DNA of 49,145 nucleotides from Microcaldota archaeon (GTDB lineage: Archaea > Micrarchaeota > Micrarchaeia > Micrarchaeales > Micrarchaeaceae): the NCBI GenBank assembly GCA_030037495.1, contig JASHRG010000020.1:1-49145 (forward strand), in the 5' to 3' direction. Shown here in pieces: positions 9,996-34,566 of the stretch (position 1 is its first letter; each line of letters begins with the position of its first letter). A model generated the notes under the pieces. It made no database searches. It saw only the letters and a list, made by a program, of their open reading frames with translations, and was not told the origin of the DNA. The position numbers and the translations under genes were made by a program.

Positions 9996-11711
9996 TCACG
10001 TAGTTTGTGTTATTACATTGCCGAAGGATGCGCCCGGCATTATGCCATCTGGAGGGGAACCCCTGATCCTAACCCAGTTTATGATAGCGCTGCCTCCTGA
10101 GCTGACCCCTCCGACATTGTTCTGTATATATAGTGGCGCAATCCCGCTGTAGATAAACGTGTTCCAGACCCATGTTGCGCTGGCAAGCGATGGCCCAACG
10201 CCATAGCAGTATATGCCACCTACGTCATTGCAAATACTGTACATGCCATAGTTTACTGTAATTCCATTCGTAAGCGTGTAGCTGCCAATCGAGTCAACAA
10301 CATTGTATATTGAAGAGCCGGTCGCGTAGTAGCCTGTGGAAGGAGATCCGGCAGGCGGCAACGGCCCCCCAAACGTGCCCATGGAATTTGCAGAATACCA
10401 GATCCAGTTCGGGTATTCAGAGCTTAGCCACAGGTTGTAGTCTCCGCCCATTACATAAAGCGCACTGTTTGATGGGGCGTTGTATGCTCCGAATCCAAAA
10501 TTCATTGAGTTTGCCACAGATGGGGCAAACGCCTCCCAGCTCAGGTCAAAGGTGCGGCCAAGCGCAGAATAAGAATTAACGCTCTTCACATAGTTGGTAC
10601 TCCCTGCTGGCAGGGTCAGGCTGTTGCTGACAGTTAGGCTGCCAACGCTGTTCCACGCTGAGCTGAGCGTTCTGCCAGCAAAATTGTCATAAAAGTCGAA
10701 CACGTGCGCTCCATCATCGTACTTTGTTCCATATACTCCAATATACGAATTGAGGTTGAAGATGTTCGGCGCTATTCCTAAAGGTCCATTTACAGACACT
10801 GTGCTGTAGGGGAGGAAGTTGACGTATATAGTTTCAGATGAGTTTGCCTGAATCCCCTGAGGCAGGTCAACCCAGATCAGCCAGTTCCCCGCATATGCTC
10901 CGCCAGGCGCTCCAAGCGCGTCCACCTCTATCCATGACTCAAGCACAGTGCCTCTTTCAGCCGGGAGCGTGCTGAACTCTATGTTGTCAGGCACGCAGGA
11001 GTGATGACAGGTGGTTGGCGTTATTGTCTTTAGGTATGGAGCATAACTCCCATTAACCGGGAACCAGAATGCAACCTGGAGAGGCCCAGATGAACCGACC
11101 GGCTGGTTGTTTGTTATTGTAATTGGCGCATAGTAGAATGTGATGGGCGCGTTTGCAATTAGCGTATTAAGCGTACTTGTCAAGGGAGAATTAGCCGATG
11201 GCTCCACTCTGATGCTGCCGCCGTATGTGAGGGAATTTGACGCTGGGCAGTTGACCGTTGAAAGGTTTCCTGCCTGGCTTGTGCAGTAGTTTGCTGACAT
11301 GTTGAAGGTTCCATAATAGATGTTTGAGAGCACTGGGGTGAAACTGAAATTTGCAACGCAGTAGACATACTGCCCGTCAAGTATCCTTGACGGCAGGCAG
11401 AATCCATTTGTGCTTGACTGGTAGTTGATCACGCCGTTGAACACGCTTGCGTTTACAACTCCAGGCTGGTTGTCTATCGCAGCCACTATAAGGGATGCGC
11501 CTGCATTTGATGGTATCAACACCGCGTCTGTGCACGTGAATCCGCTGTAGAAATTGCACTGGAATGGTATCGTTGTCTTAGGAATCCCGAGGAACAGGAC
11601 AAGGATCCCCACGGCTATTGCTATCGCAAGAAAGACGTAGCCATACGTCATCATGAATTCCATTGCGCTCTGGCTCCGGAGCATGCGCATACTAATTACT
11701 AAATAAAGCAC
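9996..11711 (-). CDS. Pilin-like surface protein with class III-type signal peptide and DUF2341-like domain
   Basis: SQSAMEFMMTYGYVFLAIAIAVGILVLFLG N-terminus; ITNNQPVGSSGPLQVAFWFPVNGS... and W-rich beta region. Confidence 0.75.
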   Translation of the reverse strand: MLYLVISMRMLRSQSAMEFMMTYGYVFLAIAIAVGILVLFLGIPKTTIPFQCNFYSGFTCTDAVLIPSNAGASLIVAAIDNQPGVVNASVFNGVINYQSSTNGFCLPSRILDGQYVYCVANFSFTPVLSNIYYGTFNMSANYCTSQAGNLSTVNCPASNSLTYGGSIRVEPSANSPLTSTLNTLIANAPITFYYAPITITNNQPVGSSGPLQVAFWFPVNGSYAPYLKTITPTTCHHSCVPDNIEFSTLPAERGTVLESWIEVDALGAPGGAYAGNWLIWVDLPQGIQANSSETIYVNFLPYSTVSVNGPLGIAPNIFNLNSYIGVYGTKYDDGAHVFDFYDNFAGRTLSSAWNSVGSLTVSNSLTLPAGSTNYVKSVNSYSALGRTFDLSWEAFAPSVANSMNFGFGAYNAPSNSALYVMGGDYNLWLSSEYPNWIWYSANSMGTFGGPLPPAGSPSTGYYATGSSIYNVVDSIGSYTLTNGITVNYGMYSICNDVGGIYCYGVGPSLASATWVWNTFIYSGIAPLYIQNNVGGVSSGGSAIINWVRIRGSPPDGIMPGASFGNVITQTT

Positions 11712-15225: not shown

Positions 15226-16620
15226 TCAGGGGAGCCACTGCCTAAGAAGCGCCTCTGAGCTTGGCGCCGGTATCGTAACCGGCATTGTGTTCCAGTGGTA
15301 GGTTACAAGATTTCCACTGCCCCCGGGGTCGCCATTTGACCCGCATGCCTGGTTGCCACCTCCTCCTCCAGAGCCTCCATATGAGTTGGAATACGAGCCG
15401 CCTCCAGCTCCGCCTGTGACGCCAGCGCCTCCTCCCCCTGCTCCGGTAAGGTAGTTGACAATGCCGCCTGTGTACCAGGATTTTATCCCGACGCTGTTCG
15501 CTATCGGGGGTGTGGGCGTTCCACCGCTTACCCCAGAAGCATCAGTGACTGCGCAGGAACCGGCGCCGCCAGCAACAAGCGTATTTCCTCCGTTTCCTCC
15601 GCAGGTTGCCTTGTTGTTGACACAGACATTGATTCCCGTGCCTCCTCCGCCTCCAGAATAGGAGTAGTTGCCAGCAGTGTAGTATGAACCATAAGCAAAC
15701 ACCAGGGTGCCGCCCCCGCCTCCCCCTGCTCCTGCCCTGCCGCTGCCTGCTAGCGATGCGCCTGTGCCGCCAACCGCGTATACCGTGCCTGGGGAAAGGA
15801 AGCCTGCCTGCATGTATATTCCATAAGCTCCACTCCCGCCTCCTGCGCTGCCTCCCTTAGCAACGTTACCTGTAAACACCATGCCATTGTTGATTATTGC
15901 ACCCCACGCCAGCAGGCTGTATCCATTTGTGCTGAGCGTCACGCCAGGATTTACAGTGATGCTCAGGGCCGTAATATTGCTTGTAAGCAGCGTGTTCTGG
16001 GTGTAGCACACGGGTGTATTTGTATTTGAGAAGCTCGATGGATTGAGCTGGCAGGTAGGCGCGCCAAGCGCAAGCTCTGGCTCAATCTCAGTGTGCCCGC
16101 TGTAGCTGCCAAGCAGGGTCTGCTGTCCTCCAGCGCATGCGCTTGAAACAAGATAGTTGGCGCTCAGGCCGCAGTTTTTGACTGTTAGGTAAACCGTACC
16201 GGAAACGAATTCCCCCTGATAGAGGTTTGAGTTTGATGGAAGCACGATCCCGCAGTACATTGACCCTCCAGGCGGAGTATACGTGGATATCGAAAGCTGC
16301 AACGGCCCGACACATGTACCCCCGGTATAGTTTGCCCCGTTTATATTAAGGGTAAATATCCCGTTTGCTAGCGCAGACGAGCCCTGATTTGTAGCCTCAA
16401 AATACAGGACACCGCTTCCTGTCGCAGACCCGAACAGCGCCGCAGAGAGGTCATCGCAGTACACCACCTGGTTGAAGGTGCAGGTATTTGGCACAGATGT
16501 CCTCGGTATGTACAGGAAGTAGTAGAGAAGCCCAGCCGCAACAGCGATTATTATCAGCGCAAAGCCATAAGTCACAAGATACTCCATGGAGGACTGCGCC
16601 AGCTTCTCCTTTCCTTGCAT
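15226..16620 (-). CDS. Pilin-like surface protein, Gly-rich
   Basis: KLAQSSMEYLVTYGFALIIIAVAAGLLYYF class III-type signal; GGAGAGGGGGGT and GGAGGGGAGVTGGAGGGS tracts. Confidence 0.75.
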   Translation of the reverse strand: MQGKEKLAQSSMEYLVTYGFALIIIAVAAGLLYYFLYIPRTSVPNTCTFNQVVYCDDLSAALFGSATGSGVLYFEATNQGSSALANGIFTLNINGANYTGGTCVGPLQLSISTYTPPGGSMYCGIVLPSNSNLYQGEFVSGTVYLTVKNCGLSANYLVSSACAGGQQTLLGSYSGHTEIEPELALGAPTCQLNPSSFSNTNTPVCYTQNTLLTSNITALSITVNPGVTLSTNGYSLLAWGAIINNGMVFTGNVAKGGSAGGGSGAYGIYMQAGFLSPGTVYAVGGTGASLAGSGRAGAGGGGGGTLVFAYGSYYTAGNYSYSGGGGGTGINVCVNNKATCGGNGGNTLVAGGAGSCAVTDASGVSGGTPTPPIANSVGIKSWYTGGIVNYLTGAGGGGAGVTGGAGGGSYSNSYGGSGGGGGNQACGSNGDPGGSGNLVTYHWNTMPVTIPAPSSEALLRQWLP

Positions 16621-19053: not shown

Positions 19054-20310
19054 ATGCCGGGCAAACCCAGCGAGGCTAAGACGACCATAGACTCGCTAGC
19101 CGAACTCCTTAGAGCAAAGGGTAAGATGGAACTTGGCAAGATAGCGCAGGAGCTGGGCGTTACTCCAAGCATAGTTGAGAACTGGGCAAAGGTGCTTGAG
19201 CAGGGATCAATGGTAAAGATCACCTATGAAGTAGGGAAGATGTACGTAGAGCCAATAACGGTCTCAAAGGAACAGGAGACCGCGCTTGCTGCCACAGTAG
19301 ACGCGGAGAAGGTGAAGCTGGAGAACGACCTTGCGCTGCAGAGAAGCTCCCTTGACAAATACGCACAGAGGCTTGAGGGGATAAGCCAGTCGGTAACAGA
19401 TGCCACCGTGCTTTTCCGTGCCAAGTTCCCAGCTCTTGAGACCCAACTGGAGGGAATAAACAAGATATATGCTGCACTTGTTGCCGAGAACCAGCAGATA
19501 GACGCCATAAAGAAAAACGCGGAGAACACCTACGAAACAGTAAACAAGAGGATCAACACACTATTCAACAGGATAGAGGGCACAGATGCAGGCTCTATAC
19601 AAAAAGCAAAGGACGAGCTCCAGAAGGTGCAGGATATTTTCAGGAGGGCGGGCGAGCTGGAAAGCCAGCTGACTCTTTTGTCAAAGAGCAAGGACAAGGC
19701 CCTCGAAACTATAAAGAAGACGATAGAGGACCAGCTTAAATCGCTGACAAAGGACCTCGCAAAGGCGCAGCAGAGCATAGAGGCGCAGCTCAAGGGAGAC
19801 GAGGCGCAGATAAGGCAGAGCGTCAAGGTAATAAGGGAGCAGGCAAAGAGCCTTGACGAGATAGGCAAGCAGATAAACAGCTTCAAGCGTGACAAAGAAT
19901 CAGTGAAGAAGTCGCTCAATGACGCGCAGAACGCGTTCAACGACGAATACACAAAGGCGTCTACAAAGATGGACACTACAGGAAACGCGCTAAGGGAGCA
20001 GATAAGATCCATGCTAGAAGAGATTGCAAGGCTGAAATCAGACTTCGGGGAAGTGAGCAAGCTCTACGACGTGCTTCAAAGGACAAAGACAGATATAGAC
20101 TCATTGCAGAAGAAGATAGCCCAGCTGAAGCAGGAAGCCGACAAGATCGATGATGCAATAAGGGCGCTGCAAACAATGAAGGGTTCCACCGAGGCAAAGG
20201 CCAGGGCAACGCAGGCTGCTTCGGACAAGATGAAGGACTTCGGAGAAGGCGTAAGGAGCGTAGACACCGATACCGCAAACCTTGCAAAGGGCCTTGCCGG
20301 CGGAGACTAG
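19054..20310 (+). CDS. Long coiled-coil protein with N-terminal winged-helix-like domain
   Basis: KMELGKIAQELGVTPSIVENWAKVLEQGSMVKI wHTH pattern then ~300 aa heptad-rich region; upstream of secretion ATPase. Confidence 0.7.
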   Translation: MPGKPSEAKTTIDSLAELLRAKGKMELGKIAQELGVTPSIVENWAKVLEQGSMVKITYEVGKMYVEPITVSKEQETALAATVDAEKVKLENDLALQRSSLDKYAQRLEGISQSVTDATVLFRAKFPALETQLEGINKIYAALVAENQQIDAIKKNAENTYETVNKRINTLFNRIEGTDAGSIQKAKDELQKVQDIFRRAGELESQLTLLSKSKDKALETIKKTIEDQLKSLTKDLAKAQQSIEAQLKGDEAQIRQSVKVIREQAKSLDEIGKQINSFKRDKESVKKSLNDAQNAFNDEYTKASTKMDTTGNALREQIRSMLEEIARLKSDFGEVSKLYDVLQRTKTDIDSLQKKIAQLKQEADKIDDAIRALQTMKGSTEAKARATQAASDKMKDFGEGVRSVDTDTANLAKGLAGGD

Positions 20311-20327
20311 ATTAGAAGTGATGGATA

Positions 20328-21842
20328 ATGGCTGAAAAAGAGAACGGAACAGAGCAGCAGGGGACCATACTCTCACACTACGCGATAAACGCCAACGGAA
20401 TACCTGTTGATGTTGACATAAGGCAAACTGGTGAATTCGCCCCGCTATATGAGATAACCTACCAGGGAATAGGTGTGGCGACAAAGCTGCTGCTGCTCTC
20501 GCTCAGGAACGACCTGCTGGCGATGGTCCCAATAGACGTTGCAAAGATCCAGAACAAAGAGTATCTGGATGAGCTGACAAGGAGGGTTCTATCCGCAAGC
20601 CTGATCCTTATAGACAAGTACCTCCCAGGCACGAGCGAGCAGACGAAGTCCCTGCTATCAGCATACATGAGGAACCTAATGCTGGGCCTCGGAGACCTCG
20701 AAGCACCACTAGCAGATGAAAATCTCGAGGAGCTTGCCGTGAACGGGTCAAGGGAGCCGATCTGGGTCTTCCACAAGAAGGTCGGCTGGTGCAAGAGCAA
20801 CATAAAACTACCAGGTGAAGAGGTCATCTACGACATATCAGAGATGATAGGAAGGAGAGTAGGCAGGGAAATAAACAACCTGGCGCCGCTTATGGACGCG
20901 GAACTGGTTGATGGATCAAGGGTCAACGCAACGCTATACCCTATATCACAAGTAGGAAACACGATAACCATAAGAAAGTTCGAGAAAAACCCGTGGACCA
21001 TGCCTGCATTTGTGAAGAACGGGACGATAAGCCCGCAGATTGCAGGTCTGATATGGCTGTGCATACAGAACGAGGTGAGCCTGCTGATATCAGGAGGAAC
21101 CGCTTCTGGGAAAACCAGCTTCCTCAACTCATCAAGCATATTCTTCCCTGCAACAAGAAGGATAATATCAGTGGAGGAGACAAGGGAGCTTTCACTTCCA
21201 AGGTTCTTCCAGTGGGTCTCGATGATATCTAGGAGGCCAAACCCGGAGGGCAAGGGGGAGGTGACGCTATATGACCTCATGGTTAATGCGCTCAGGCAGA
21301 GGCCTGACATAATGCTCGTAGGGGAAGTGAGAACAGGAAAAGACGCAGAGACGCTGTTCGAGGCAATACACACGGGCCATGCAGTCTATGGAACCCTACA
21401 CGCGGATAACGCGCAGGACACTATTGTAAGAATGACAAACCCGCCAATCAACACCCCCAAAATAATGATCAATGCGATCGGAGGCATGGTCGTGATGTTC
21501 AGGCACAGGACCAGGGGGATAAGAAGGGCGCTAGAGTTTGCGGAGATAATGAGGACTGGCGACGCCAACACGCTCTACAGGTGGAGCATGAGGAACGATA
21601 CGTTCAACCAGGTGGGGGACATGCTGCGACTGCAGGAGGTAATAGGGCTTTATGGCGGCCTCAACCTCAAGGAGATAGAGGAGGACGTAGCCGAGAAGGC
21701 AAAGATACTGCTGTGGATGGCCAAGCACAACGTGACGATGGTGGACGATGCGGCGTTCGTCGTGTCGAACTACTACAAGAAAAAGGAGAAGGTGCTTGAG
21801 ATAGTCAAAAACGACGTTGAGTTCTCGCAGAATTTGTTTTGA
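20328..21842 (+). CDS. Type II/IV secretion system ATPase (TadA/GspE/VirB11-like)
   Basis: Walker A ISGGTASGKTSFLNS; DIMLVGEVRTGKDAETLFEAIHTGHAVYGTLHADNA. Confidence 0.93.
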   Translation: MAEKENGTEQQGTILSHYAINANGIPVDVDIRQTGEFAPLYEITYQGIGVATKLLLLSLRNDLLAMVPIDVAKIQNKEYLDELTRRVLSASLILIDKYLPGTSEQTKSLLSAYMRNLMLGLGDLEAPLADENLEELAVNGSREPIWVFHKKVGWCKSNIKLPGEEVIYDISEMIGRRVGREINNLAPLMDAELVDGSRVNATLYPISQVGNTITIRKFEKNPWTMPAFVKNGTISPQIAGLIWLCIQNEVSLLISGGTASGKTSFLNSSSIFFPATRRIISVEETRELSLPRFFQWVSMISRRPNPEGKGEVTLYDLMVNALRQRPDIMLVGEVRTGKDAETLFEAIHTGHAVYGTLHADNAQDTIVRMTNPPINTPKIMINAIGGMVVMFRHRTRGIRRALEFAEIMRTGDANTLYRWSMRNDTFNQVGDMLRLQEVIGLYGGLNLKEIEEDVAEKAKILLWMAKHNVTMVDDAAFVVSNYYKKKEKVLEIVKNDVEFSQNLF

Positions 21843-21849
21843 TGAGTGA

Positions 21850-22605
21850 ATGGCAGAAGACACAAGTGAGTACGGGAGGCTTGTAGAGCTAATCGATGGC
21901 ATAGAGAAAGACTCAAAGAAACCAGAGTCAGGATTCATAGACCTGTCAGAAATAGTGAACGCGGCAGCAGTGCCAGCGCACGGGACCTACGCTGCTGCGC
22001 TGCAGCTAATAGGCGAGGTGGAGAGCGGCGGCAGGAGGATGCGCGAGCAGCCTATGCAGATACCTACGCAGCAGGCGCCCGAGCAGCACCTGATAACGAC
22101 AGGAGTCACACAGACTCCGTTCAAGCAGGGCGAGGTGCCGAAGCCGCAGAAGGAGAAGAAGCCTTTCGCACTCTTCCCGCAGAAGCAGGCGCAGGAGGCG
22201 CAGCCCGTAGCGCAAAAGCAAACGGAGGAGATGCGCAAGCAGAAAACGGCAATGGAGCTGTCTGCGATAATGGGCAAGCTCCAGTCAGTAAGGCCGAGCA
22301 TTCCAGAGTTCAAGAGGAGGAAGCTCAACGTGAAGGATCTTGTGCTTCCAAACCTGTCAATAGCAGACCAGATATCCGAGCTCGAAAGGATTATAGAGGG
22401 CCTCAATGAGCACGTTTTCGACGGCGACCACATGGAGATAGTTTCACAAGAGGTATTCGGCCTGCAGCAGGTAATCGCTGACCAGCGGAAGAAGGCAAAG
22501 GGAAAGCGGGAGGCGCAGAGCCCTCTAGAGCAGTCGCTGATAGATGTAAGGGACCAGAGGCTGGGCGATGCAGCATCCCTGCTCCAGCAAAGCGGTGCTA
22601 AATGA
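21850..22605 (+). CDS. Hypothetical Gln/Pro/Lys-rich pilus-locus protein
   Basis: Sits between ATPase and T2SF genes; low-complexity centre, helical C-terminus. Confidence 0.6.
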   Translation: MAEDTSEYGRLVELIDGIEKDSKKPESGFIDLSEIVNAAAVPAHGTYAAALQLIGEVESGGRRMREQPMQIPTQQAPEQHLITTGVTQTPFKQGEVPKPQKEKKPFALFPQKQAQEAQPVAQKQTEEMRKQKTAMELSAIMGKLQSVRPSIPEFKRRKLNVKDLVLPNLSIADQISELERIIEGLNEHVFDGDHMEIVSQEVFGLQQVIADQRKKAKGKREAQSPLEQSLIDVRDQRLGDAASLLQQSGAK

Positions 22606-23936
22606 TGGGCCTATTCAAGAAGAAAAACAAGGTTATCGAGGTCGGAGGCCAGAAGATAGAGCTGCAGCCAAAGCCAAAGAAAGGAGTTTTTGCATTATTC
22701 AGCAAGAAGGGGGCGCAAAAACCAGCACCAAAATCTGTATCATCGCAGCCAGCATCACAGCTTTTCACGCCAACCCAACCACAGGCTCCGCGCGCGCCCG
22801 AGCCGCAGATGCCCAAGAGCACGGTCCAGATGCAGCCTGAGCAGAAACAACCACAGCAGATGAACAAGATAGAGGCTGACTATGGAAGGCCGCAGCCCAG
22901 GCCCCAGGCAACTGTGCAGAAGCCAAAGCAGGGCCTGTTCTCAAGGTTCGGCAGCAAGAGCGTATTGAAGCCTGGAGGCGCTGCAAAGGCGGAGACTCCA
23001 CGGCTGGAATTTCCAAGTGCGATAGCAGAAGGGTCAAGGGTGCAGGCGATTCCAGGGCAGCCCGCTGCCCGGGGGCAATACGCCAAACCGAAGGGCAAGC
23101 AGAGCCCGCTTGACAAGTACATAGAGAAGACTGCAGCAAAGCAGAAGGGGCTCGAAGCTGCGCTGCGCGAAGCGGGAATGAAATCGGACGTGATAAGTTT
23201 CGTGAAGCGCATGTTCTTTGCTTCGGTTGCGCTCTCTATAGTCCTTGCAATAGTCGTGTTTGTATTCTTTAGCGCGATAGGACTGACGGCTATAGAGGCC
23301 GTGCTATTCGCTGTTGTGCTTGGAATTGGGATATTCCAGACGAGCCAGAAATCATTCCTTCAGTATCCGCTTGCAAGGGAGAAGAGCACCGCAAAGAACG
23401 TTGAAAGGGACATACTGTTTGCGGCAAGAGACCTGATAATATCGTTACGTTCAGGAATGCCGCTGTTCAACGCGCTCACATCCGTAAGCACAGGCTACGG
23501 CGACGCGAGCAAGGAGTTTGCAAAGATAGTCGACAGGGTGCAGCTAGGCATGCCGCTTGAAGACGCAATCGATGACACGATAGCTTCGACCAAGAGCGCC
23601 TCATTCAGAAGAATAATGCTCCAGGCTTCTGTGAGCATAAAGGCGGGAGCTGATGTTGTGAGCGCACTTCAGAGCATAATAGAGCAGCTGTCTCAGGAAA
23701 GGATCATAGAGCTCAGGAGCTACGGCCAGAAGCTCAATGCAATCGCGATGTTCTACATGCTTTTCGGCGTCATACTGCCAAGCATGGGAATAGCTGTCAT
23801 AACAATACTCACGACTTTCATAGCGCTGTTCACTGTTGACACCACTGTATTTGAATTCGTGCTCATAGGTATAATAGGGCTCCAGGTTATATTCCTGAGG
23901 TTAATAACAGGCTCAAGGCCTGTGTTCTCGATGTGA
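22602..23936 (+). CDS. Type II secretion F-domain (TadC/FlaJ-like) membrane protein with long disordered N-terminus
   Basis: AARDLIISLRSGMPLFNALTSVSTGYGDASKEFAKIVDRVQLGMPLEDAIDD T2SF pattern, C-terminal TMs. Confidence 0.87.
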   Translation: MMGLFKKKNKVIEVGGQKIELQPKPKKGVFALFSKKGAQKPAPKSVSSQPASQLFTPTQPQAPRAPEPQMPKSTVQMQPEQKQPQQMNKIEADYGRPQPRPQATVQKPKQGLFSRFGSKSVLKPGGAAKAETPRLEFPSAIAEGSRVQAIPGQPAARGQYAKPKGKQSPLDKYIEKTAAKQKGLEAALREAGMKSDVISFVKRMFFASVALSIVLAIVVFVFFSAIGLTAIEAVLFAVVLGIGIFQTSQKSFLQYPLAREKSTAKNVERDILFAARDLIISLRSGMPLFNALTSVSTGYGDASKEFAKIVDRVQLGMPLEDAIDDTIASTKSASFRRIMLQASVSIKAGADVVSALQSIIEQLSQERIIELRSYGQKLNAIAMFYMLFGVILPSMGIAVITILTTFIALFTVDTTVFEFVLIGIIGLQVIFLRLITGSRPVFSM

Positions 23937-23940
23937 TGCC

Positions 23941-24954
23941 ATGCCAGGAAAAGGCCCAAGACTACCGCCAATGAATTTCGAGAGATTCCTCTCTAGGCCG
24001 CTTGCGAAGGCGATATCAGAAGAGCTTGACATAGCCGGGGTGCACACATCTGTAAATACCCTCGTAGAGTACGCCACAATACCTGGCTTTGCGATCCTTG
24101 TCATAGGCTCTATTGTTGCATTTGCGCTTGGAATTCCCATATACTTCGACTGGCTTGTGGGTATCGGAGGCGCAGCCCTTTACGTGGCCTTCATTTACCT
24201 CTACCTTGAATACCTGATAGACAACAGGAAGACCAAGGTCGAGACGATGCTTCCTGATTTCTTCCAGATAGTTGCTGCTAACCTGAGAAGCGGCATATCC
24301 CTTGAAAGGGCGATGCTCCTTGCCGCAAGGCCAGAGTTCGGCTTCCTTTCCGATGATGTAAAGGAAATGACAAGAAGAGTATTTGGCGGCGAAACCCTCG
24401 AAGTTTCCATCAAGGACTTTGCCGCAAAGTACAGGTCTTATCAGCTCAGGCATGCCGTAAGAATGATAACAGAAGCGCTCAGGTACGGCGGCGCGATGGC
24501 AGACCTTATAGCACAGATATCGAGGGACATAAGGAGCCAGCAGTTGATACAGAAGGAGGTTGCCGGACAGCTGATGATGTACTCCATATTCGTGGCTTTC
24601 GCAGGGCTCATAGCAGCCCCGGTCCTTTATGGGCTGACAACCCAGATGATAATAATAACAGACGGAGTCTGGAACGGAATTCTCGCAAGCAATCCCGGGG
24701 GCCTTCCAACAACAGGAGTCGCATTCCTGAAGCCGAGCCCGCCAAAGATAACGCCAGCTGAGTACCAAGCGTTCTCCTACGCGGCAATATTGATAATAAC
24801 CGCTTTCGCAAGCCTGATAATGTCAGCGATATCTACAGGGTCAGCGGTCAGGGGTCTGAGGTTACTCCCGGTATTCGTCATAATAGGGTTCATCATATAC
24901 TTCATAGTGCAGAACGTCATAGGCTCGCTTTTCAGCAGTATAGGCACCGTGTAA
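23941..24954 (+). CDS. Type II secretion F-domain (TadC/FlaJ-like) membrane protein
   Basis: ANLRSGISLERAMLLAARPEFGFLSDDVKEMTRRVFGGETLEVSIKDFA; TM segments. Confidence 0.88.
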   Translation: MPGKGPRLPPMNFERFLSRPLAKAISEELDIAGVHTSVNTLVEYATIPGFAILVIGSIVAFALGIPIYFDWLVGIGGAALYVAFIYLYLEYLIDNRKTKVETMLPDFFQIVAANLRSGISLERAMLLAARPEFGFLSDDVKEMTRRVFGGETLEVSIKDFAAKYRSYQLRHAVRMITEALRYGGAMADLIAQISRDIRSQQLIQKEVAGQLMMYSIFVAFAGLIAAPVLYGLTTQMIIITDGVWNGILASNPGGLPTTGVAFLKPSPPKITPAEYQAFSYAAILIITAFASLIMSAISTGSAVRGLRLLPVFVIIGFIIYFIVQNVIGSLFSSIGTV

Positions 24955-24973
24955 GGCGTAGCGCGAGCTCTCT

Positions 24974-25966
24974 TTACGTGCAGGCTTCCCATCCAGAGCC
25001 ACAGGTGTAGCTTCCCTGCCCATTAGGATATATTATAGTTCCGGATGTCTTTGTGCATGTGCTGGGGCACACAAGCGATGAGACGCTTGTCTGGTAGCAC
25101 ACATAACAGGCAAGGTTTGTCGACTTCTCCGTCACTGTTGTGCCTCCGCCGGCTGAATTCAGAGTAAGCACAGCCAGCAGGGAATTTGCTGGAAGCACCG
25201 GAGAGGCCGGTGCGGAAGACGCCCAGCTGTTGAACGCGAAAGAGGAGGGCAGCGCAGCATAAAGGTTGTAGTTTCCTGGCGTTATCAGCATCGCGTTCTG
25301 CCCGCTTGCATACGGGACCCCATTCATATATATTATTGCATTGCTGCCAACTGCTGTGCCGGTTATCCCATTGACCTCTTTGGACATGAATGACACGGTA
25401 TAAGTATTGATTGTAGCAGGAGCGACAGAGACGCTGCCGTAGCCCGTTGACTTGTACAGTGTAGCCGAGCAGCTGCTCTGCGAATTGCTCTGACACAGGT
25501 AATACGACAAGGTGAAGAGCAGGTTCACCGTGGTTCCTACAGGGGGCGATAAACTGCCGGTTACGCTTATCGTGCAGAGAACAGGGCTTCCAGACAGCGC
25601 AAGGTATGGCGCACATGTCCCATAGTTAAGCTTGCTTCCTGGCACACCCACCCCTGTTGTCGAGAGGTTTATCGCGTTCGAAGTTGGGAACAATATCGGG
25701 TTCTTGAAGTCATTGGTGAAACTGATATAGAATACAATGCCGCTCTTTGCAGAGTAGTTTGTCAGGACAACGTCGCCGCACGGCAGCAGAGGTCCTATAG
25801 TGCACTCTGAGGAAAACTGCGCCTGGCTTGTGGTCGAGGTTGTGAGTGTTATTATCACAAGTATGAACAGGGATATTATCAGTATGGCCCACGCATACGC
25901 GCTCAGCATTTCCAGCATAGACTGGGCGCGCAGCATATTCTCATTGCCTTTTTTCATGATCCGCAT
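24974..25966 (-). CDS. Pilin-like secreted protein
   Basis: LRAQSMLEMLSAYAWAILIISLFILVIITLTT; Cys-rich C-terminus. Confidence 0.7.
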   Translation of the reverse strand: MRIMKKGNENMLRAQSMLEMLSAYAWAILIISLFILVIITLTTSTTSQAQFSSECTIGPLLPCGDVVLTNYSAKSGIVFYISFTNDFKNPILFPTSNAINLSTTGVGVPGSKLNYGTCAPYLALSGSPVLCTISVTGSLSPPVGTTVNLLFTLSYYLCQSNSQSSCSATLYKSTGYGSVSVAPATINTYTVSFMSKEVNGITGTAVGSNAIIYMNGVPYASGQNAMLITPGNYNLYAALPSSFAFNSWASSAPASPVLPANSLLAVLTLNSAGGGTTVTEKSTNLACYVCYQTSVSSLVCPSTCTKTSGTIIYPNGQGSYTCGSGWEACT

Positions 25967-26000
25967 TTGCCTACCATTATAGATACCAACAGAAAATTAT

Positions 26001-28826
26001 TTATGGCGGCCCTATGCTTAGGCCGCAGGTCAGGTTCATAACGCTGCCTAGGCTGCACGGCGCAGTGCTCCCTGTTGTGAATATACCAGTGTCGCCCGCC
26101 ACTGTCTCAGGCGTAAGGTTGTCAAAGCCCCGATAGTATGAGCTGAGCGGCATGTTTATGCTTGGAGACGCGGCTGGGCCCGCGTTCACGCTTCCGTTGA
26201 GGTAGAGCGACAGCATCTGGTTTGAACTGAGCACATTGTTGTATATCTGGAAGTTCGCCAGATAGCCGCTGAACGACGGTCCGCTTCCGAAATTGGTGCT
26301 GTCGCTCCTGCCCAGCGAATAAAATATTGGGTTGTTGAGGCTGAGCCTGGCTGCGCCAAAGCCTGCTACCTGTACGCCGTTTATGTATGTGGTAACAAAC
26401 TGCGATATGCTGTTGTAGGTGAACCCTATCTGGGTCCAGTTGTATATTGCAGGCGTTGTTGTGAGCTGCTCGTCCGCAAGGGTGGAGCACACATAAACGC
26501 CAACATAGATGTGGTCATTGTAGACCCCTACCATCTCCTCATGAAGGAACCCGGTGTAACCGCAGCTGTCCTGCTTTGAAGCTGTGTAATTGTTCTCATC
26601 AACGATCACTCCGTTGAACACAGTGGGGTATGCCCATATAGACATGCTGAAAGAGTTCGCAGAATTGTCCAACCACGATATCGAGTTCTGCTCAGTGATA
26701 TACGCGGTTGTGCCTCCGCTCATGCCAGGACGCACATTGTAGAGCCCAAGCACATCGGGCAGCACCGCGTTGCCTAGTCCCAGGGCTGAGCTCTCGCCCA
26801 GTGCTACATTACCTACATAGCTCAGCGGATATCCCCCGAGGTAGAGGTGTCTTTGCTGTGAGGTGCACTGGTCAAGGCTGCCGCAGTTCAGTGCTCCAGG
26901 AACCGCATACGTGGTGGAGTTCGTTAATATATTCCTATATATCGGGTCAGCGTAGTATCCGGAAAGGTAGTTGTAGGTTACTCCTACAACATTACCGTTG
27001 TAGTTGTGGCCGCTATAGTCATTTGCATTGCCATTGAGCGGATACCATGCTATGAGGTTTGCGCTTGCAACAGGAAGTCCAGTTATCCCCTCTCTGTACA
27101 GCTGCTGCGCATAGAATGCGCTCAGCGGTGTATTGTATATCTGGATGTTTGAGAGCGAGCCGTTGAATCCGGACCAGATCGCGCCCTCCCCGCCTATGTA
27201 GAGGGAATTTGCGTCAACAGGCAGGTTGTTTATCACATAGTTGCCCGCAGGGTTTCCGTTTATGTACCAGCTCAGCGTACCATGGCCAACCACCACCGTT
27301 GCCTGGATCCAGGTTCCAGGGTTTGTAGAGGTGGACGGTGTTCCTGTGTAGTGGAGCGTCCCAGATGCGTCAGTGTATGCAACGTCAAGTAGGCCGTTCC
27401 ATGTGGAGCCCCCAAACGTGCATGGGCTCGGTGCAAAATTAGGCACGCTCAAAATGTCAAAATACGTAGAGTGCAGCGAGTTGCCGAAATAAATTAAACT
27501 ATCGCAGCCTGTGCTTGGATCCAGCGCAAACGCGCCCTTGTTCAACCAAAACGATATCGTAAATGTGCTCGGGAGCACTATGCCTGATTTCACCAGTATG
27601 CCTTCCTGCTGGAACTCGGTGAAGTTTGGGGCTTCCCAGTTCAATGATCCAAAAGAGAACAGGCCGTTCACCTGCCTCTGCGTGAAAACGTTTTGCTGAT
27701 CTATGTAGCTTGGAACATACGGAGAGGTGAAATACTTGTCTGTCTGTATCGCGCTTTGTAACGATGATGTGTTATATGCGGCTAGCCCCGCCCCGTCCAG
27801 CAGCACCTGGCTGAGGTTTGCCCCCTGCCACAGGCTGTTGAACGCGTTTGACGTCGGATACACAAGATATGGCACGTCCACGGAAGAATAGCTACTGCAT
27901 ACCCCTCCGGAAGGCACTGACAGGTCATCGGTTATCACGCCCGCAAATCCGCAATCCGGCGGCGGTCCTGTAGGTAAGCAGGGCTGCGTGTCATAAATCA
28001 GGTAGTAGGTATTGCTGGTTACGAGTATGTAGTGCGGCGCGTTCTGCGTGGTCGCGAAACTGCCCAGAGATCCGCAGGTCGGTCCCCCTCCTGACTGCGG
28101 GTTTTGCAGTGCTGTCAGTACTGTCCCGTATGCAAAGGAGAATTTCCCTGTAGAGCCTGCTGTCGCATATGAATTTCCAACAAGCACAGCTGTTGGAAGG
28201 CTCTTCTGTATTGATATTGTGGAAGGCATGCCCTGCTGCGCCCCGACTATGTCAAGGGTTCCATTAAGCTGCACGCTGGTTGTGGCCCTTATCGGGTATG
28301 TATACGTTCCAGCCGTAGTGTTCACCATAGCGACCGCGTAGTAGCTCGCATTTATTGTTGATGGGGTTCCCTGAAACACCGTGAGGTTCCCCCCAATTAA
28401 CCTAATCGAGACTCCTTCGCTGGCAAGGCTTGCGTTTATCGAGTTGCTGAAGTTGCTTATCAGCGCAGCATCCATGTACTGCCCGAAGCTAGCGCCATAG
28501 ATTGTCCCATTTTCCATCAGCGATGTCAGCGAATACTGGGTGTTATTTACTATGATGCCCTGCCTTGCCAGGGTATTGCCCTCTATCGTTTCAAGCGTTC
28601 CAAGGGCAGCCAACAAGCTCGTATGCAGCATACTGGTGATACTGAGCGAAACCAGGGATGCGCTTACGCCGCCCGCAGATGCGCTTGCTGCCTGTTGCGT
28701 CAGTGAATCATAGTTTACGTTTATTACAACATAGGTGATGACCTCGCCAAGCATAAGAACGAATAGCACTATAACAAGCAGGGTAAGCAAAAGGCCCTTC
28801 TTGTTTTTCGATTGAATCATCGCCAT
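26001..28826 (-). CDS. Giant surface protein with pilin-like N-terminus and two LamG-like domains
   Basis: KKGLLLTLLVIVLFVLMLG N-terminus; repeated ...ISFWLNKGAF..., ..IQIYNTPLSAFYAQQLYREGITGLPVASANLIAWYPLNGNANDYSG. Confidence 0.78.
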   Translation of the reverse strand: MAMIQSKNKKGLLLTLLVIVLFVLMLGEVITYVVINVNYDSLTQQAASASAGGVSASLVSLSITSMLHTSLLAALGTLETIEGNTLARQGIIVNNTQYSLTSLMENGTIYGASFGQYMDAALISNFSNSINASLASEGVSIRLIGGNLTVFQGTPSTINASYYAVAMVNTTAGTYTYPIRATTSVQLNGTLDIVGAQQGMPSTISIQKSLPTAVLVGNSYATAGSTGKFSFAYGTVLTALQNPQSGGGPTCGSLGSFATTQNAPHYILVTSNTYYLIYDTQPCLPTGPPPDCGFAGVITDDLSVPSGGVCSSYSSVDVPYLVYPTSNAFNSLWQGANLSQVLLDGAGLAAYNTSSLQSAIQTDKYFTSPYVPSYIDQQNVFTQRQVNGLFSFGSLNWEAPNFTEFQQEGILVKSGIVLPSTFTISFWLNKGAFALDPSTGCDSLIYFGNSLHSTYFDILSVPNFAPSPCTFGGSTWNGLLDVAYTDASGTLHYTGTPSTSTNPGTWIQATVVVGHGTLSWYINGNPAGNYVINNLPVDANSLYIGGEGAIWSGFNGSLSNIQIYNTPLSAFYAQQLYREGITGLPVASANLIAWYPLNGNANDYSGHNYNGNVVGVTYNYLSGYYADPIYRNILTNSTTYAVPGALNCGSLDQCTSQQRHLYLGGYPLSYVGNVALGESSALGLGNAVLPDVLGLYNVRPGMSGGTTAYITEQNSISWLDNSANSFSMSIWAYPTVFNGVIVDENNYTASKQDSCGYTGFLHEEMVGVYNDHIYVGVYVCSTLADEQLTTTPAIYNWTQIGFTYNSISQFVTTYINGVQVAGFGAARLSLNNPIFYSLGRSDSTNFGSGPSFSGYLANFQIYNNVLSSNQMLSLYLNGSVNAGPAASPSINMPLSSYYRGFDNLTPETVAGDTGIFTTGSTAPCSLGSVMNLTCGLSIGPP

Positions 28827-31123
28827 ACAACCACGCTAACGTTCCTGTTCGTATAATTGCCATTCACGTTTATCGTCAATGGAACCGTAGACCTGCTTAT
28901 CTGGTATGAGCTCTGCAACCCTGGCGGCATCGACGGAACTGCCGTGTACCTGACACTGTTGGACTGGAACACGGCAAAGCCCTCATAATCGTTTGAATCT
29001 CCGTCAAGGGGCAGCCACGCCACAGCGCCCTGCAGCGGCACTCCCCCGGTTCCCTCGCTGTAAAGCTGTTGCGCCTGGGACTGGCTAAGCGCATAATTGT
29101 ACAGCTGAAGATCCTGTACGTCCCCGGTCATGTACGTTCCAAGAACCGCGCTGCCTCCAACCGTCAACGGTATGCCATATTCTGAGAGGTATGGAGGGCA
29201 CGCTGATGGCGGGGAGCAGGAGGCAAAAGCTTGCGACCGCACTGCTGCGCCATTTATGTAAGTGATAAGCGCAATTCCATTATAGGTAATTACAACATGG
29301 GTCCAGCTGTCTGGTAAAATATTCGCAGCGTACGCAAGGGAGGCTCCGTAGCCAGGTATGCCCACAAAAGATGTAATGGAATTGGAGTTGGCGTTCTGCT
29401 GCAGGTAGAACCCATGCGTCTTGGACTGGTCTATCATTCCAGCTATGAAGCCATTGCTTGTAGAGTCAGCAGGTAGATATACCCATACGGACATGGAGAA
29501 CAATGTGCTATAGATTTTCTGCGATGCATTAATCTCATACAAATAGCTGTTCCCTGTGAAAGCAGCCGCCTTGAGCGAAGGCGCGTATGTGTTGTTTATC
29601 AAAAGCGCAACCTTACCGTAACCGTAGCTTTGGTTCAGTATCTGCGTCGCGCACGCGCCTGCCGTATTAAGGTACATGGTGGTAAGCGCTTGTAAGAGGC
29701 TGCCGTTCGGGTCAGCGCTGCAAGTGCCTATTGCGTATATCATATTGCCCACGGCAACATATGCATTGCCATATGCTACAGCTATGTCAGTGAGCGCATT
29801 AATCGGAACAGGGGCCTGGCTTGGCAGCGTAGCATTCCAAATCATAGCGCCGGTTATTGGATTGAAATCCTGGAGCACGTTCCCGTTCGATAGGACATAC
29901 AGCGCATTGCTGGTCAACGTGGGAGTGGCATTGATGTATCCTTGCACTCCCAGCGATTTGAAGAGCCTGTTTCCATTCTGCGCATAGCCATATACCGTAT
30001 TGCCTGCGCCGAGATAGACAGAGCCGTTAGACGCAGCTGGCCCTCCAATCATCGGCGAATAATACGCGAGCATCGCGTTCCATAGGACAGTACCATTTGT
30101 ATTTACCGCGTAGAGCGCGGGATACGGTGTTCCTGCAATTCCGCTGTAGTATGGCGAATACCCAAAGTACATGGTGTTGCCAAAACTGCTGACAGGGGTT
30201 ATTGCAGGCGTGAAGTACATTATAGGCCCCATCAAACTCGTATTTACTGCGGTTATGCTGCTGCCGTAGTTCCATGCGATTTCGGGGGTGTAGCAAGAAT
30301 ACGAGCCGGACTGGCAGTATGTATACGCGAGGCCAGAATACCTGCCGTTGCCGTAAACCATTGGGACATTGAGGTAAAGCGGGGACGAAGCTGTGGTTGA
30401 TGCTGCAGCATACTCCACGCCATTGGCGGGATTGGTCAGCGTCATGTTGGTTTCCAGCGAGCCTCCCTCCACATCGAGGATGCTCCTAAGACTGTTTTCA
30501 AACTCAAATGGGAAGATCCCGCCCCAGCTATACCTGATCTGCGTGCCCCAGAGCATCTGCCCGTTCTCGGTATATGCAACAATGAAGTTGTTTGCCGTCA
30601 GTGTGTATATGAAATGGTTGAATATCACAGGGTCTGAAATGAAGGTCCCTGTTACTGCATTGGGCGGCAGCACGTTGAACACAAGTGAGCCGGTCGTTGC
30701 ATTGAGCGCGTACAGGTAAGACCTCGTCCCGTTGGTGGAGAACACCAAAAGACCGTCGGCAACGGCGGGCGCAGGGTTTATTGCATTGAATGTCTGATAC
30801 GAGAACAAGACAAATGGGTATGCTGGTCCCGAGCTCGGCGTGCTTGACGAGACGTTCGCACCGTACCCATATTGAGGCCATGTATACTGCGCGGAGTTCC
30901 ACTTCGACACCGCAACCAGGGCCAGGCCCCTTCCAGCGGCAGCCTGTCCGAGCGTGCTCTGCATGAAGCTCTGTGATACAGCCAGCGCCTCGCTCTGCGT
31001 TCCCTGTATCTGCGTTGCTGGCGTGTATAGGGAAAGAAGCAGCAGCGAGGTTGCTGCAGCCGCAACTATGAGCGCAAATATCGCGTCAAGCGTGAATACG
31101 AATCCCTTGAAGTTACTCATCAA
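28817..31123 (-). CDS. Surface protein with pilin-like N-terminus, PQQ-like beta-propeller and LamG-like domain
   Basis: FKGFVFTLDAIFALIVAAAA; repeats such as LYALNATTGSLVF, YAVNTNGTVLWNA, VLQDFNPITGAMIWNA; LQLYNYALSQSQAQQLYSEGTGGVPL. Confidence 0.78.
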   Translation of the reverse strand: MMSNFKGFVFTLDAIFALIVAAAATSLLLLSLYTPATQIQGTQSEALAVSQSFMQSTLGQAAAGRGLALVAVSKWNSAQYTWPQYGYGANVSSSTPSSGPAYPFVLFSYQTFNAINPAPAVADGLLVFSTNGTRSYLYALNATTGSLVFNVLPPNAVTGTFISDPVIFNHFIYTLTANNFIVAYTENGQMLWGTQIRYSWGGIFPFEFENSLRSILDVEGGSLETNMTLTNPANGVEYAAASTTASSPLYLNVPMVYGNGRYSGLAYTYCQSGSYSCYTPEIAWNYGSSITAVNTSLMGPIMYFTPAITPVSSFGNTMYFGYSPYYSGIAGTPYPALYAVNTNGTVLWNAMLAYYSPMIGGPAASNGSVYLGAGNTVYGYAQNGNRLFKSLGVQGYINATPTLTSNALYVLSNGNVLQDFNPITGAMIWNATLPSQAPVPINALTDIAVAYGNAYVAVGNMIYAIGTCSADPNGSLLQALTTMYLNTAGACATQILNQSYGYGKVALLINNTYAPSLKAAAFTGNSYLYEINASQKIYSTLFSMSVWVYLPADSTSNGFIAGMIDQSKTHGFYLQQNANSNSITSFVGIPGYGASLAYAANILPDSWTHVVITYNGIALITYINGAAVRSQAFASCSPPSACPPYLSEYGIPLTVGGSAVLGTYMTGDVQDLQLYNYALSQSQAQQLYSEGTGGVPLQGAVAWLPLDGDSNDYEGFAVFQSNSVRYTAVPSMPPGLQSSYQISRSTVPLTINVNGNYTNRNVSVVVWR

Positions 31124-31124
31124 A

Positions 31125-31685
31125 TCAACTTATTGCGGCCGAGCTGTTACTCCAGAGCAGCACCTGCATTGTCACTGGTATGCCGTTAAGGAACGCGCTC
31201 CTCTTTTCGACGTAGACTGTCAGCGCGTTGTTAAGGTTAGGATTGGACCCTATCGTTATGTTTATCGAGGGCCCGGTTATTATCACGTAGTAATCATAGC
31301 CTATTCCGAGCTGTGTTTTTGTTGCCTGGTAGTTCTTGTTTGCCATCGCCATGAAGGTGTACAGCTTGCTCGACGAGAGGTTCCCGGCTATTCCTGCTGA
31401 ACCAAGGCCTATGCTGACGTTGCTCCACGTCAGCGTGTTCGTGGAATTGACCACGCTTTGCCAGTTTGTCGGGTATCCCAGCGAAAGAAGGGTCTGCGCA
31501 AGGGAGTGCGCCTGCAACTGCGCTATCACGGCTCCGCTTCCGTAGCCAAGCGAAAGCTGGTTGTTTACGTTATACCAGACGAATCCCAGAATCGTAAGCG
31601 CAGTTATGAATATTATTATCGCGAAGATCACGTCAAAGCTCCAGAACTGGGCCCCTAGTCCCTTACCCAGCGATCCATTGTACAT
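31125..31685 (-). CDS. Pilin-like protein
   Basis: GAQFWSFDVIFAIIIFITALTILGFVWY N-terminal helix. Confidence 0.65.
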   Translation of the reverse strand: MYNGSLGKGLGAQFWSFDVIFAIIIFITALTILGFVWYNVNNQLSLGYGSGAVIAQLQAHSLAQTLLSLGYPTNWQSVVNSTNTLTWSNVSIGLGSAGIAGNLSSSKLYTFMAMANKNYQATKTQLGIGYDYYVIITGPSINITIGSNPNLNNALTVYVEKRSAFLNGIPVTMQVLLWSNSSAAIS

Positions 31686-31686
31686 T

Positions 31687-34566
31687 TTATTTCACCGATA
31701 CGTTCAGCCTCACAACAGGAGGTATTCCCTGTTCGTAAAGCTGCAGCAGCTGCTGTTGCGACAACGTTGTGTTGTATACCTGCAGGTCAGTGATAGATCC
31801 ATTGAATACATCAACTGCAGCTATCAGCGGCCCCCCTCCGGGAGTGGTGCCCCCTACTATCAGCGGCTGTTCTGGCCCGCCTGAGTCCCACGTATATTGC
31901 AGGGTCCCATTTGTCCACCTGCCGTTTATGAATACGCTAATTTTCTGCTGAGAAACCTCTGCTGCCATAAAATTCCACGAATTGAAGTTTACTCGCGCGC
32001 CGCTTGTGGGCGCAAAGACGTCAGCCTTGCTGGCCGAGGACGGGGCGCTGAAATAGGGAAGCCCGCTGTGCTGTATGCCCAGTGCAAGCCCAGGTCCTAC
32101 CGATGCCTCGTCACCACCATAACTAAAGAATATGCTATTGGTGTTGCTGTTCTGCACAGGCGTGGGCTTTATCCAAGCAACTATCGTGAATATGTTGGCA
32201 GCTACGCTCCCTCCTATGTCAGTGAAGGATGCGCTACCGCTTCCTTGCGCATAATACACATTGGCGCTTACAGGGTTGAAGCTTAGCGCGTATGCAGACG
32301 GGCCCAGCAACGAATAATTAGTGAATGTAACGCTGCCGAATTTGGCGCTGCCTCCAATAGTGCTGTTCTGGTTGCCTACGCTGCTGAGGTCGGTCAGGCT
32401 GCCATCCAGCGCCCACCATCCTATAAGTCCTGTGTTCTGCAGCGGCACTCCTGTGATTCCCTGGCTGTAGAGCGCGCTTACCTGGGACTGGTTAAGATAA
32501 GAGGAATACAACTGGACATCGCTTATAATACCGTTCATTGCGCCTGACTGCCCACTCTGCCAGAAGTCGTCGCCTATGATGTATGGCCCAGGCCTTGTAA
32601 CCAGCAGGCCTGACCCAACAGTATTGGCTGCGAACAGCGATGAATTCAGGTATACGCTTGCTACCCCGCTAGCCTTGTTGTACTCCGCTGTGATCATAAC
32701 CCATGACCCGGCGGTGAGGTTTGTTGCGTGCCCTGATGGCCAGTTCACTATCCTATTCGACACCTGGAACACCCCGGTTGCAAGCCCGTTCGCCATTATC
32801 TGGAAGCCGTTCGCAGTTGTCCCAGTGTTTGTTGACAGGTCGCCGAAAACTCCTTGCGTGTAGCCGTCGTTGCCTCCGTAGTAGACCCACGCGACAGCTG
32901 TGAATGTCCCGTTGTTGTTTATGTTGTAGTATGCCGAGTCTGTGCCTATTACTATGTTGCCCCCGCTGCTTGCGCCCGCAAAGTTTGCCGCCTGGAAGTT
33001 CGTGATGTTCCTGTTTGCAGCAGTCCATCCCGGGAATCCCTTGTAGACGTTGAGCGCCTGAAGTTGCATCTTGAATGGCCCCATGTCATACACGGTGTTG
33101 CCATAGCCACTGTTGAGCGGAAACCATACGGTCAGTCCGTTGTGCCCTATCAGGTTCGTATTTATCAGCGTATTGTTTCCATTGAACTCGGTTACCGTGA
33201 GGTTGATCAGGCCATGAGCTCCATTTGATACCAGAAAAGCAGTTGCAACCCCAGGCGCGGGACTGCCGTAGTATGCGCCGTTGGCGCTTAGCGTTCCGGC
33301 GCTGGATGAGAATCCAGTAAGCTGGTATACAGGAAGACCCTGGCCAAGCGCAGGTATAAGCACCTTTGAGCCATTTGTAAGAAGGGGGTATGCATTTACC
33401 TGCACCACGTATTGATATGTAATGCCGTTTGCGATCAACACATCGTATCCATTTCCGCCATAGTCGTATGTGTCTCCGTTTAGAGGGTACCACGCAACCA
33501 CATTCTGCGTAGCCACGGGAGGCCCGCTTATGCCCTGGCTATAGAGCGCCAGCACCTGGCTTGCACTCAGCGAAGTGTTGTATATCTGCACGTTTGTCAT
33601 TATGCCATTAAACATGTAAGGAGCAAGACAGGTTTCATCGGCAAAACAGTCAGTGCCCAGCGCTATGCCTGTTGAGCTGCTGCCCGCTGCCCAATTTACT
33701 CCTGATATTGAGTTCACGCTCTGGCCGTTTATGTAGAGCGTCTCCACCCCGGAAACCGAATTGTAGGTGCCTGCTACAAATGTGAACGTCTGCGTTGGTA
33801 TATTGGCGGGGTTGCAAACAACTGTAGTCTGCGCCTGGAAGAAACACGGATATAGGTTGCCAGATGGGCCAAAGCCCACGCTGAGCCCAGCGTTCTGGAA
33901 CCCCACAACAGAGTTTGCGCTTTCGGAAGCAGCCGTGGGGTCAATCCATGCAACTACTGTTTCGGCCTTGAGGTTGGCGGCAAAGGCTGGCGCCAGGCTG
34001 TACCCACCAACGATTCCGTTGAAGACACCCGCAAGGGTCTTGCCCGCCATCCTTGCATAGAGGTTGCTTGCAAGATTCACAGTAGATGCGGGAAGCCTGT
34101 TCACGAAGAGCACTCCGTTTATGTTCGACACCTGGAACACTCCTGTGCTTGGCAGCACGTACAGCTGTATGCTGTTCGTGCTCTGCGATGAATATGTGCC
34201 ATTGACAATCAGGCTCCTTGCGCTGCTGAACGCGTATGCACTCACAACCTGCGAGCCAACCCTGCTAGACACTATAACAACACCAGTAGATGATATTGTT
34301 ATGTTGTATGGAAGCGTGCCTATGCTTCCTGTTAAAGGCGTGGATATGTTGTAGCCGCTCCCGGCATAGACCGCCTGGTCGAGGTACCCGGCAACGTCCT
34401 GCGCGACCAGCTGGAGCGCAGAATAACTCTCAGCATTGAGCGCTGACGCCCTTTCCGAAGTTACCAACAAGAATATGACGGCAAATACCAGCACAACAAA
34501 GGAGTAGACAACAAGGAACTCAAATGATATCTGTGACTTGCTTCTATCGCTGGCACTCCCACTCAT
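31687..34566 (-). CDS. Giant surface protein with class III-type signal peptide and three LamG-like domains
   Basis: SKSQISFEFLVVYSFVVLVFAVIFLLVTSE; three YN/YS..LS..Q...LY.QGI modules. Confidence 0.8.
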   Translation of the reverse strand: MSGSASDRSKSQISFEFLVVYSFVVLVFAVIFLLVTSERASALNAESYSALQLVAQDVAGYLDQAVYAGSGYNISTPLTGSIGTLPYNITISSTGVVIVSSRVGSQVVSAYAFSSARSLIVNGTYSSQSTNSIQLYVLPSTGVFQVSNINGVLFVNRLPASTVNLASNLYARMAGKTLAGVFNGIVGGYSLAPAFAANLKAETVVAWIDPTAASESANSVVGFQNAGLSVGFGPSGNLYPCFFQAQTTVVCNPANIPTQTFTFVAGTYNSVSGVETLYINGQSVNSISGVNWAAGSSSTGIALGTDCFADETCLAPYMFNGIMTNVQIYNTSLSASQVLALYSQGISGPPVATQNVVAWYPLNGDTYDYGGNGYDVLIANGITYQYVVQVNAYPLLTNGSKVLIPALGQGLPVYQLTGFSSSAGTLSANGAYYGSPAPGVATAFLVSNGAHGLINLTVTEFNGNNTLINTNLIGHNGLTVWFPLNSGYGNTVYDMGPFKMQLQALNVYKGFPGWTAANRNITNFQAANFAGASSGGNIVIGTDSAYYNINNNGTFTAVAWVYYGGNDGYTQGVFGDLSTNTGTTANGFQIMANGLATGVFQVSNRIVNWPSGHATNLTAGSWVMITAEYNKASGVASVYLNSSLFAANTVGSGLLVTRPGPYIIGDDFWQSGQSGAMNGIISDVQLYSSYLNQSQVSALYSQGITGVPLQNTGLIGWWALDGSLTDLSSVGNQNSTIGGSAKFGSVTFTNYSLLGPSAYALSFNPVSANVYYAQGSGSASFTDIGGSVAANIFTIVAWIKPTPVQNSNTNSIFFSYGGDEASVGPGLALGIQHSGLPYFSAPSSASKADVFAPTSGARVNFNSWNFMAAEVSQQKISVFINGRWTNGTLQYTWDSGGPEQPLIVGGTTPGGGPLIAAVDVFNGSITDLQVYNTTLSQQQLLQLYEQGIPPVVRLNVSVK

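Follow-up and report, generated by a model that had tools for sequence, protein, structure and literature searches.

How would an archaeon that is tiny and probably host-dependent come to encode pilin-type proteins of up to 959 amino acids (aa), and what might such proteins do? The question is raised by a 49,145-nucleotide stretch of DNA (contig JASHRG010000020.1 of assembly GCA_030037495.1; referred to here as the window) from a Microcaldota archaeon of the family Micrarchaeaceae, the source being a metagenome-assembled Micrarchaeota genome of 870 kb, 93% complete. In the window, five plus-strand genes for the assembly of a type IV filament converge on five minus-strand pilin-type genes, with a gap of only 19 bp (24955-24973) between the two sets. 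The pilin-type proteins are named here by their lengths: p330, p941, p768, p186 and p959. A reading made earlier from the sequence alone (the original prediction) had described ten open reading frames (ORFs) with this arrangement, and their coordinates, their lengths and the 19-bp gap all proved to be as it gave them. We consider it probable that the locus encodes a type IV filament system in which the minor pilins have come to form a complex with several lectin heads that would grip glycans of a host or matrix.

Large heads on pilin-type proteins

The original prediction assigned six LamG-like modules and a PQQ-like propeller to the three huge proteins, and Pfam finds the same set. LamG (PF13385) is matched in p941 (2.6e-17), p768 (8.8e-16) and p959 (1.3e-42), with two, one and three modules, respectively, and p768 also matches PQQ_2. 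No known domain was found by Pfam in p186 or p330, and a p186 profile found no relative in the PDB. Structure predictions were made for p768 and p941. The modelled LamG folds resemble pentraxin and laminin LG domains, in agreement with the folds that had been proposed, and the propeller model of p768 resembles BamB (8orr; Foldseek E 1.4e-14). In the p941 model, a first helix of 75 residues is followed by three long strands.

The pilin-type N-termini that had been noticed also hold up. In comparisons of 25-70 orthologues per gene, no part of the protein is better conserved than the N-terminus, whose pattern is specific to each gene: K(G/A)-QIALEF with Glu5 in p959, KA-QFWSFD in p186, KG-FIFTLDA in p768 and KG-ILLTLL in p941 (residues are numbered from the hyphen). 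In the window itself, the class III Glu5 pattern is present in p959 (KS-QISFE), p330 (RA-QSMLE) and the two further genes that had been called pilin-like, at 9996 (RS-QSAME) and 15226 (LA-QSSME); p941 (KG-LLLTLL) lacks an early acidic residue. Because the Pfam Class_IIIsignal model missed the signals of these operon genes and gave one weak match elsewhere in the genome, the signals were called by motif and conservation.

No Pfam family matched gene 15226. Further Glu5 pilins with Gly-rich heads like that of gene 15226 are encoded at L288 and L292 of the same genome, in which one pilin stem therefore carries several head types. The p330 gene is confined to part of the genus, with homologues in loci L066, L067, L068, L069, L071 and L072.

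A four-gene cassette and its bare relatives

A profile search finds relatives of p186 in 157 of the 196 genomes of a phylum sample, representing more than 20 families. Around these relatives in other orders the gene order is equal, and the neighbours are p959-like proteins of 142-193 aa, p768-like proteins of 166-226 aa and p941-like proteins of 460-690 aa. A relative is called bare only where Pfam was run or where its length leaves no room for LamG; in eight bare p941 relatives, Pfam detects no LamG. The bare p959 relatives align to residues 1-160 of decorated p959 (hhalign 99.5%, E 3.1e-23), and the bare p941 relatives align to residues 1-391 of decorated p941 (hhalign 99.5%, E 3.7e-22). On sequence grounds, p959, p186, p768 and p941 form a minor-pilin cassette of four genes that extends across the class. 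In several other orders its genes are mostly short and bare, and in this order (Micrarchaeales) three of the four pilins have acquired LamG/propeller heads, p186 never. By Pfam, the models and hhalign, a pilin module plus a grafted concanavalin A (ConA)-like module is present in the cassette proteins.

Comparison with the bare relatives shows that LamG modules were added C-terminally of the p959 core, to p941 and, with the propeller, to p768. A conserved helical link, conserved C-terminal strands and the model suggest that in p768 the propeller and LamG were inserted within the pilin domain.

How stable are the heads within the order? LamG is present in all 23 p959 orthologues and in none of 73 p186 orthologues, and the number of modules varies from 2-4 in p959 and mostly 2-3 in p941 to 1-2 in p768. 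PQQ_2 was matched in 36/36 propeller-length p768 orthologues scanned, which were picked by length. In p768 versions of about 570-620 aa, which include that of Ca. Micrarchaeum A_DKE, there are two LamG modules and no propeller (5/5 scanned); in some species, then, the propeller has been exchanged for a second LamG. DUF2341 occurs in only two of 37 p941 orthologues. The frequency of the commonest residue rises from the heads (0.30-0.37) through the cores (0.39-0.56) to the N-terminal helices (0.64-0.70).

In another family, p941 has likewise acquired LamG (L271, L272), as have two pilins of L281, which makes the decoration recurrent; the modules in L271 and L272 are detected by Pfam and were missed by a six-sequence LamG profile. 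In L287, from the family of the source archaeon, the p768- and p941-like genes are bare and p959 alone is decorated. A different route to giant pilins is seen in L268-L270 of another family, where a p186 relative adjoins pilins of 1166-1659 aa that start AQTAVEFLTTYGW.

Assembly genes and synteny

Pfam identifies one T2SSE and two T2SSF proteins on the plus strand, as the original prediction had it. The nearest solved structures to the ATPase are archaeal GspE (2oap, 3.6e-61) and FlaI (1e-49). The ATPase was matched in 60/60 genomes searched, some of the matches being a distant paralogue only, and in most genomes the orthologue is 57-82% identical. Its gene adjoins the coiled-coil gene in essentially all relatives. 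The Gln/Pro-rich protein has no Pfam match, and in relatives a homologue (27-56% identical) sits between the ATPase and the platform genes. The 19054 protein matches HTH_11 and FlaC_arch, both under the Pfam cut-off.

Synteny in relatives had been proposed as a check, and the platform or ATPase genes converge on the cassette in 46 of the 54 loci from named genomes with enough sequence. This convergent arrangement is not due to chance. The gene set is syntenic across the order, including the cultured Ca. Micrarchaeum A_DKE (NZ_CP060530), which has the ATPase, the Gln/Pro-rich gene, both platform genes and all four cassette pilins. The assembly genes and the cassette lie apart in a few genomes. 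p768 was matched in 60/60 genomes searched, although some of the matches cover its LamG part only. An apparent 1220-aa p768/p941 fusion in L097 is an artefact caused by a stretch of N.

LamG pilins elsewhere in the genome

LamG is not confined to the cassette, and LamG matches per genome reach the thirties. LamG ORFs that stand alone and are 230-420 aa long were taken from the source genome and about 40 relatives, and in 54 of the 65 a helix follows a strict class III motif (a few may be one gene counted twice), compared with 5/195 background ORFs that match the motif; the others have a pilin-type N-terminus by eye. These stand-alone pilins have the common N-terminus QSAMEYLMTYGWAILIIAVVL, which suggests that they are co-assembled.

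Golyshina et al. (PMC5498576) reported a LamG expansion in Ca. Mancarchaeum acidiphilum Mia14 and its link to type IV pilus (T4P) loci; the available portions of that paper do not state that the LamG proteins are pilins. Judged from their sequences, most of the LamG proteins behind the known expansion in Micrarchaeota are putatively lectin-headed pilins. One could go further and propose that the whole filament is clad in lectins, with the LamG pilins of about 300 aa serving as interchangeable major pilins, their N-helices near-identical and their heads forming, in each species, a variable set on one pilus with which to recognise different partner cells; this extension is tentative, and we are inclined to doubt it. 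The genome also encodes a giant secreted protein of 2727 aa (L294:972-9152), in which a genome search found LamG and hmmscan of the whole protein found none.

Proposed function and its alternatives

In the mechanism that we favour, the FlaI/GspE-type ATPase and the two platform proteins, whose domains are recognisable, would assemble class III prepilins, whose signals are conserved. The conserved minor-pilin set p959, p186, p768 and p941 would correspond by analogy to the HIJK tip complex of bacteria; p941, which has no early acidic residue, would perhaps take the K-like cap position, and the complex is probably located at the filament tip. The heads would be held off the cell, where they could bind glycans or glycoproteins of the host or matrix and tether the small cell to its partner. 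Further LamG-headed pilins may join the same filament via their near-identical N-terminal helices.

Several observations weigh against this proposal. Both p186 (GA-QFWSFD) and p768 (KG-FVFTLD) have Asp at +6 instead of Glu5. The genome does encode a candidate A24 prepilin peptidase, a 294-aa membrane protein in L062, but its match is under the Pfam cut-off (E 8.1e-5 to 8.2e-4). The hhalign tie between bare and decorated p768 is 97% and covers the N-terminal ~95 residues only, and LamG folds are not always lectins. In A_DKE co-culture, filaments are seen at contact sites, and galactose- and mannose-type lectins stain the matrix (PMC8975820). However, the authors of that study suggest that the contact filament may be made by the host, and neither pili nor LamG come up in their main text; therefore, a link between the A_DKE filaments and this locus can be offered as a hypothesis only.

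Could the LamG proteins serve some other purpose? Sugar-binding proteins with class III signals are known from the bindosome of Sulfolobus, and a similar array near the membrane might capture host or environmental carbohydrates while holding no cell. The ATPase does match BasE (1.3e-33), but it matches the FlaI model far better (3.5e-69); in addition, the cassette consists of minor pilins that have bare counterparts in other orders, and, among the window ORFs read, none next to the cassette was recognised as a sugar transporter, all of which makes sugar scavenging unlikely. We would give equally little credence to heads that have no host ligands and merely tether or space the pilus against the surface layer (S-layer), or bundle pili. 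A mere spacer would suit the interchange of propeller and LamG in p768, and A_DKE possesses an S-layer (PMC8975820). Yet the heads change faster than the cores, and the many LamG pilin paralogues per genome fit a diversity of ligands better than a fixed spacer.

The machinery is common to type II secretion systems and T4P, and DNA import by DPANN pili has been proposed (PMC7414124), so that one might also think of a pseudopilus for DNA uptake or general secretion, its heads being cargo or DNA-capture accessories. This is very improbable: ConA-like folds typically bind carbohydrate or protein, and no competence gene was recognised by eye among the window ORFs. An archaellum was rejected, the FlaI model giving 233.9 bits against a curated cut-off of 550; FlaH, FlaF and FlaG were not recognised among the neighbouring ORFs read, no genome-wide search having been made. 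The original prediction spoke of adhesive tip subunits, and such a role is still the best reading in view of the bare cassette elsewhere, the faster-changing heads and the bacterial precedents; glycan or host binding and the tip location are what we infer. Of the outcomes that the original prediction named as refuting it, two did not occur, namely a lack of LamG folds and a lack of synteny in relatives. That interpretation was largely right and is partly supported, its functional step being a prediction.

Relation to known systems

Headed pilins of this kind are known in bacteria and scarcely described in archaea. Modular pilins with ConA-like modules are common in bacteria, and a survey by the bacterial motif IPR012902 lists PF13385 as one of the frequent architectures (PMC8179133). 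In Streptococcus sanguinis, the ConA-like module of PilC, a member of a tip complex, is a true lectin that binds glycans (PMC9934059). As in the locus described here, PilABC has a large ConA-like module on a pilin, one operon shared with other minor pilins and one member without Glu5. In contrast to that bacterial system, which has one lectin module in one pilin, three of the four pilins are headed here, with up to three LamG modules each plus a propeller; the likeness is one of design, and lectin activity of the present heads is a prediction.

The HIJK proteins (GspHIJK/FimU-PilVWX) are four minor pilins from one operon with a K subunit that lacks Glu5. In the present cassette four minor pilins are co-encoded across orders and p941 has no early acidic residue, but neither p186 nor p768 has a canonical Glu5 either; the comparison is meant in a works-like sense only. 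T4P-2 of the Saccharibacteria episymbiont Nanosynbacter lyticus TM7x includes a minor pilin, PilX2, with a C-terminal beta-propeller and a noncanonical signal, and deletion of PilX2 about halves host binding (PMC12206443). It is, however, a bacterial T4aP, its propeller is of the seven-bladed RCC1 type and a LamG module is not described.

Typical archaeal pilins had been called small, a contrast that was overstated: large DUF2341 tip-adhesin candidates have been proposed (PMC4858521), and T4P-linked LamG genes are on record in Mia14 (PMC5498576). The T4P loci of Mia14 (MIA14_0170-0177) are very probably this same locus, since position and gene number fit L097. The available portions of the 2017 text make no mention of class III pilins with LamG heads, of the cassette of four genes or of its bare relatives; its authors assigned one of their T4P loci to clade 1 archaeal T4P (PMC5498576). 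In clade 1 systems (Methanococci, Methanobacteria, Thermococci), an ATPase and two TadC-like proteins are accompanied by at least five minor pilins and by two large proteins regarded as putative tip adhesins (PMC4858521). Those adhesins carry DUF2341, whereas here there is LamG instead, with DUF2341 near the cut-off in gene 9996. Our literature search found no paper joining LamG, type IV pilin and archaea. The locus would be an archaeal, multi-head form of the modular lectin pilin, for which the T4P-linked LamG genes noted in 2017 are partial prior art.

For the open question of how hosts are recognised and held by DPANN symbionts, specific proteins with testable heads can now be named. The presence of the locus in cultured A_DKE, and very probably in the Mia14 co-culture, makes binding, proteomic and imaging tests feasible. 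The cassette also provides a clean evolutionary series in archaea, from bare to decorated minor pilins, that parallels the bacterial modular pilins.

Features of the locus and neighbouring genes

The features are collected in Table 1. On the minus strand, p959 and p186 are separated by 1 bp, as are p186 and p768, and p768 and p941 overlap by 10 bp.

Table 1. Assembly genes, pilin-type genes and head modules in the window
Feature	Position	Strand	Remarks
Winged helix-turn-helix/coiled-coil protein, cytoplasmic	19054..20310	+	First gene of assembly operon; weak N-terminal winged-helix match, then long coiled coil
Secretion/assembly ATPase, GspE/VirB11/FlaI superfamily	20328..21842	+	T2SSE 3.6e-32 (Pfam)
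Gln/Pro-rich soluble protein	21850..22605	+	Place conserved; no known family
Platform membrane protein, T2SSF (TadB/FlaJ-like half)	22602..23936	+	PF00482 1e-16
Second platform membrane protein, T2SSF	23941..24954	+	PF00482 1.4e-14
p330, Glu5-type pilin, no known domain	24974..25966	-	N-terminus MLRA-QSMLEMLSAYAWAILII
p941, pilin-type without early acidic residue	26001..28826	-	Core ~aa 1-391, then LamG, linker, LamG
LamG module 1 of p941 (partial Pfam span)	27117..27377	-	7.2e-10
LamG module 2 of p941	26217..26663	-	1.7e-10
p768, FxFTxDA-type pilin	28817..31123	-	Propeller and one LamG between conserved N- and C-terminal parts
BamB/PQQ-like beta-propeller of p768, ~aa 100-470	29714..30826	-	PQQ_2 4.1e-12
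LamG module of p768	29075..29527	-	1.1e-17
p186, bare minor pilin, best conserved of the five	31125..31685	-	26-sequence alignment, 50% mean column identity
p959, Glu5 pilin	31687..34566	-	Core ~aa 1-160, then three LamG modules
LamG module 1 of p959	33553..33993	-	5.8e-18
LamG module 2 of p959	32476..32922	-	6.4e-14
LamG module 3 of p959	31750..32244	-	1.8e-16
Further Glu5-type pilin with DUF2341-like head	9996..11711	-	QSAMEF motif; DUF2341 1.2e-4, 22.9 vs 23.4 bits, just under cut-off
Further Glu5-type pilin with Gly-rich head	15226..16620	-	QSSMEY motif

Between the pilin operon and the RNA polymerase subunit L gene upstream of it lie just 45 bp (34567-34611), and this interval holds an AT-rich, TATA-like stretch. 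The operon is preceded by ribosomal-protein/rpb11 genes, and upstream of these is a gene for a secreted CAP-domain protein (44144-45259, minus strand; PF00188, 2.2e-7). The genome has a second secretion ATPase (L293:1404-2717; T2SSE 2.2e-29), which is conserved in most relatives. Two other minus-strand genes of the window were recognised by eye: a PIN-domain, VapC-like protein (16802-17179) and a Fic-type protein with an HPFLDGNKR motif (526-1467), the latter in a low-GC stretch (0.35) and possibly acquired.

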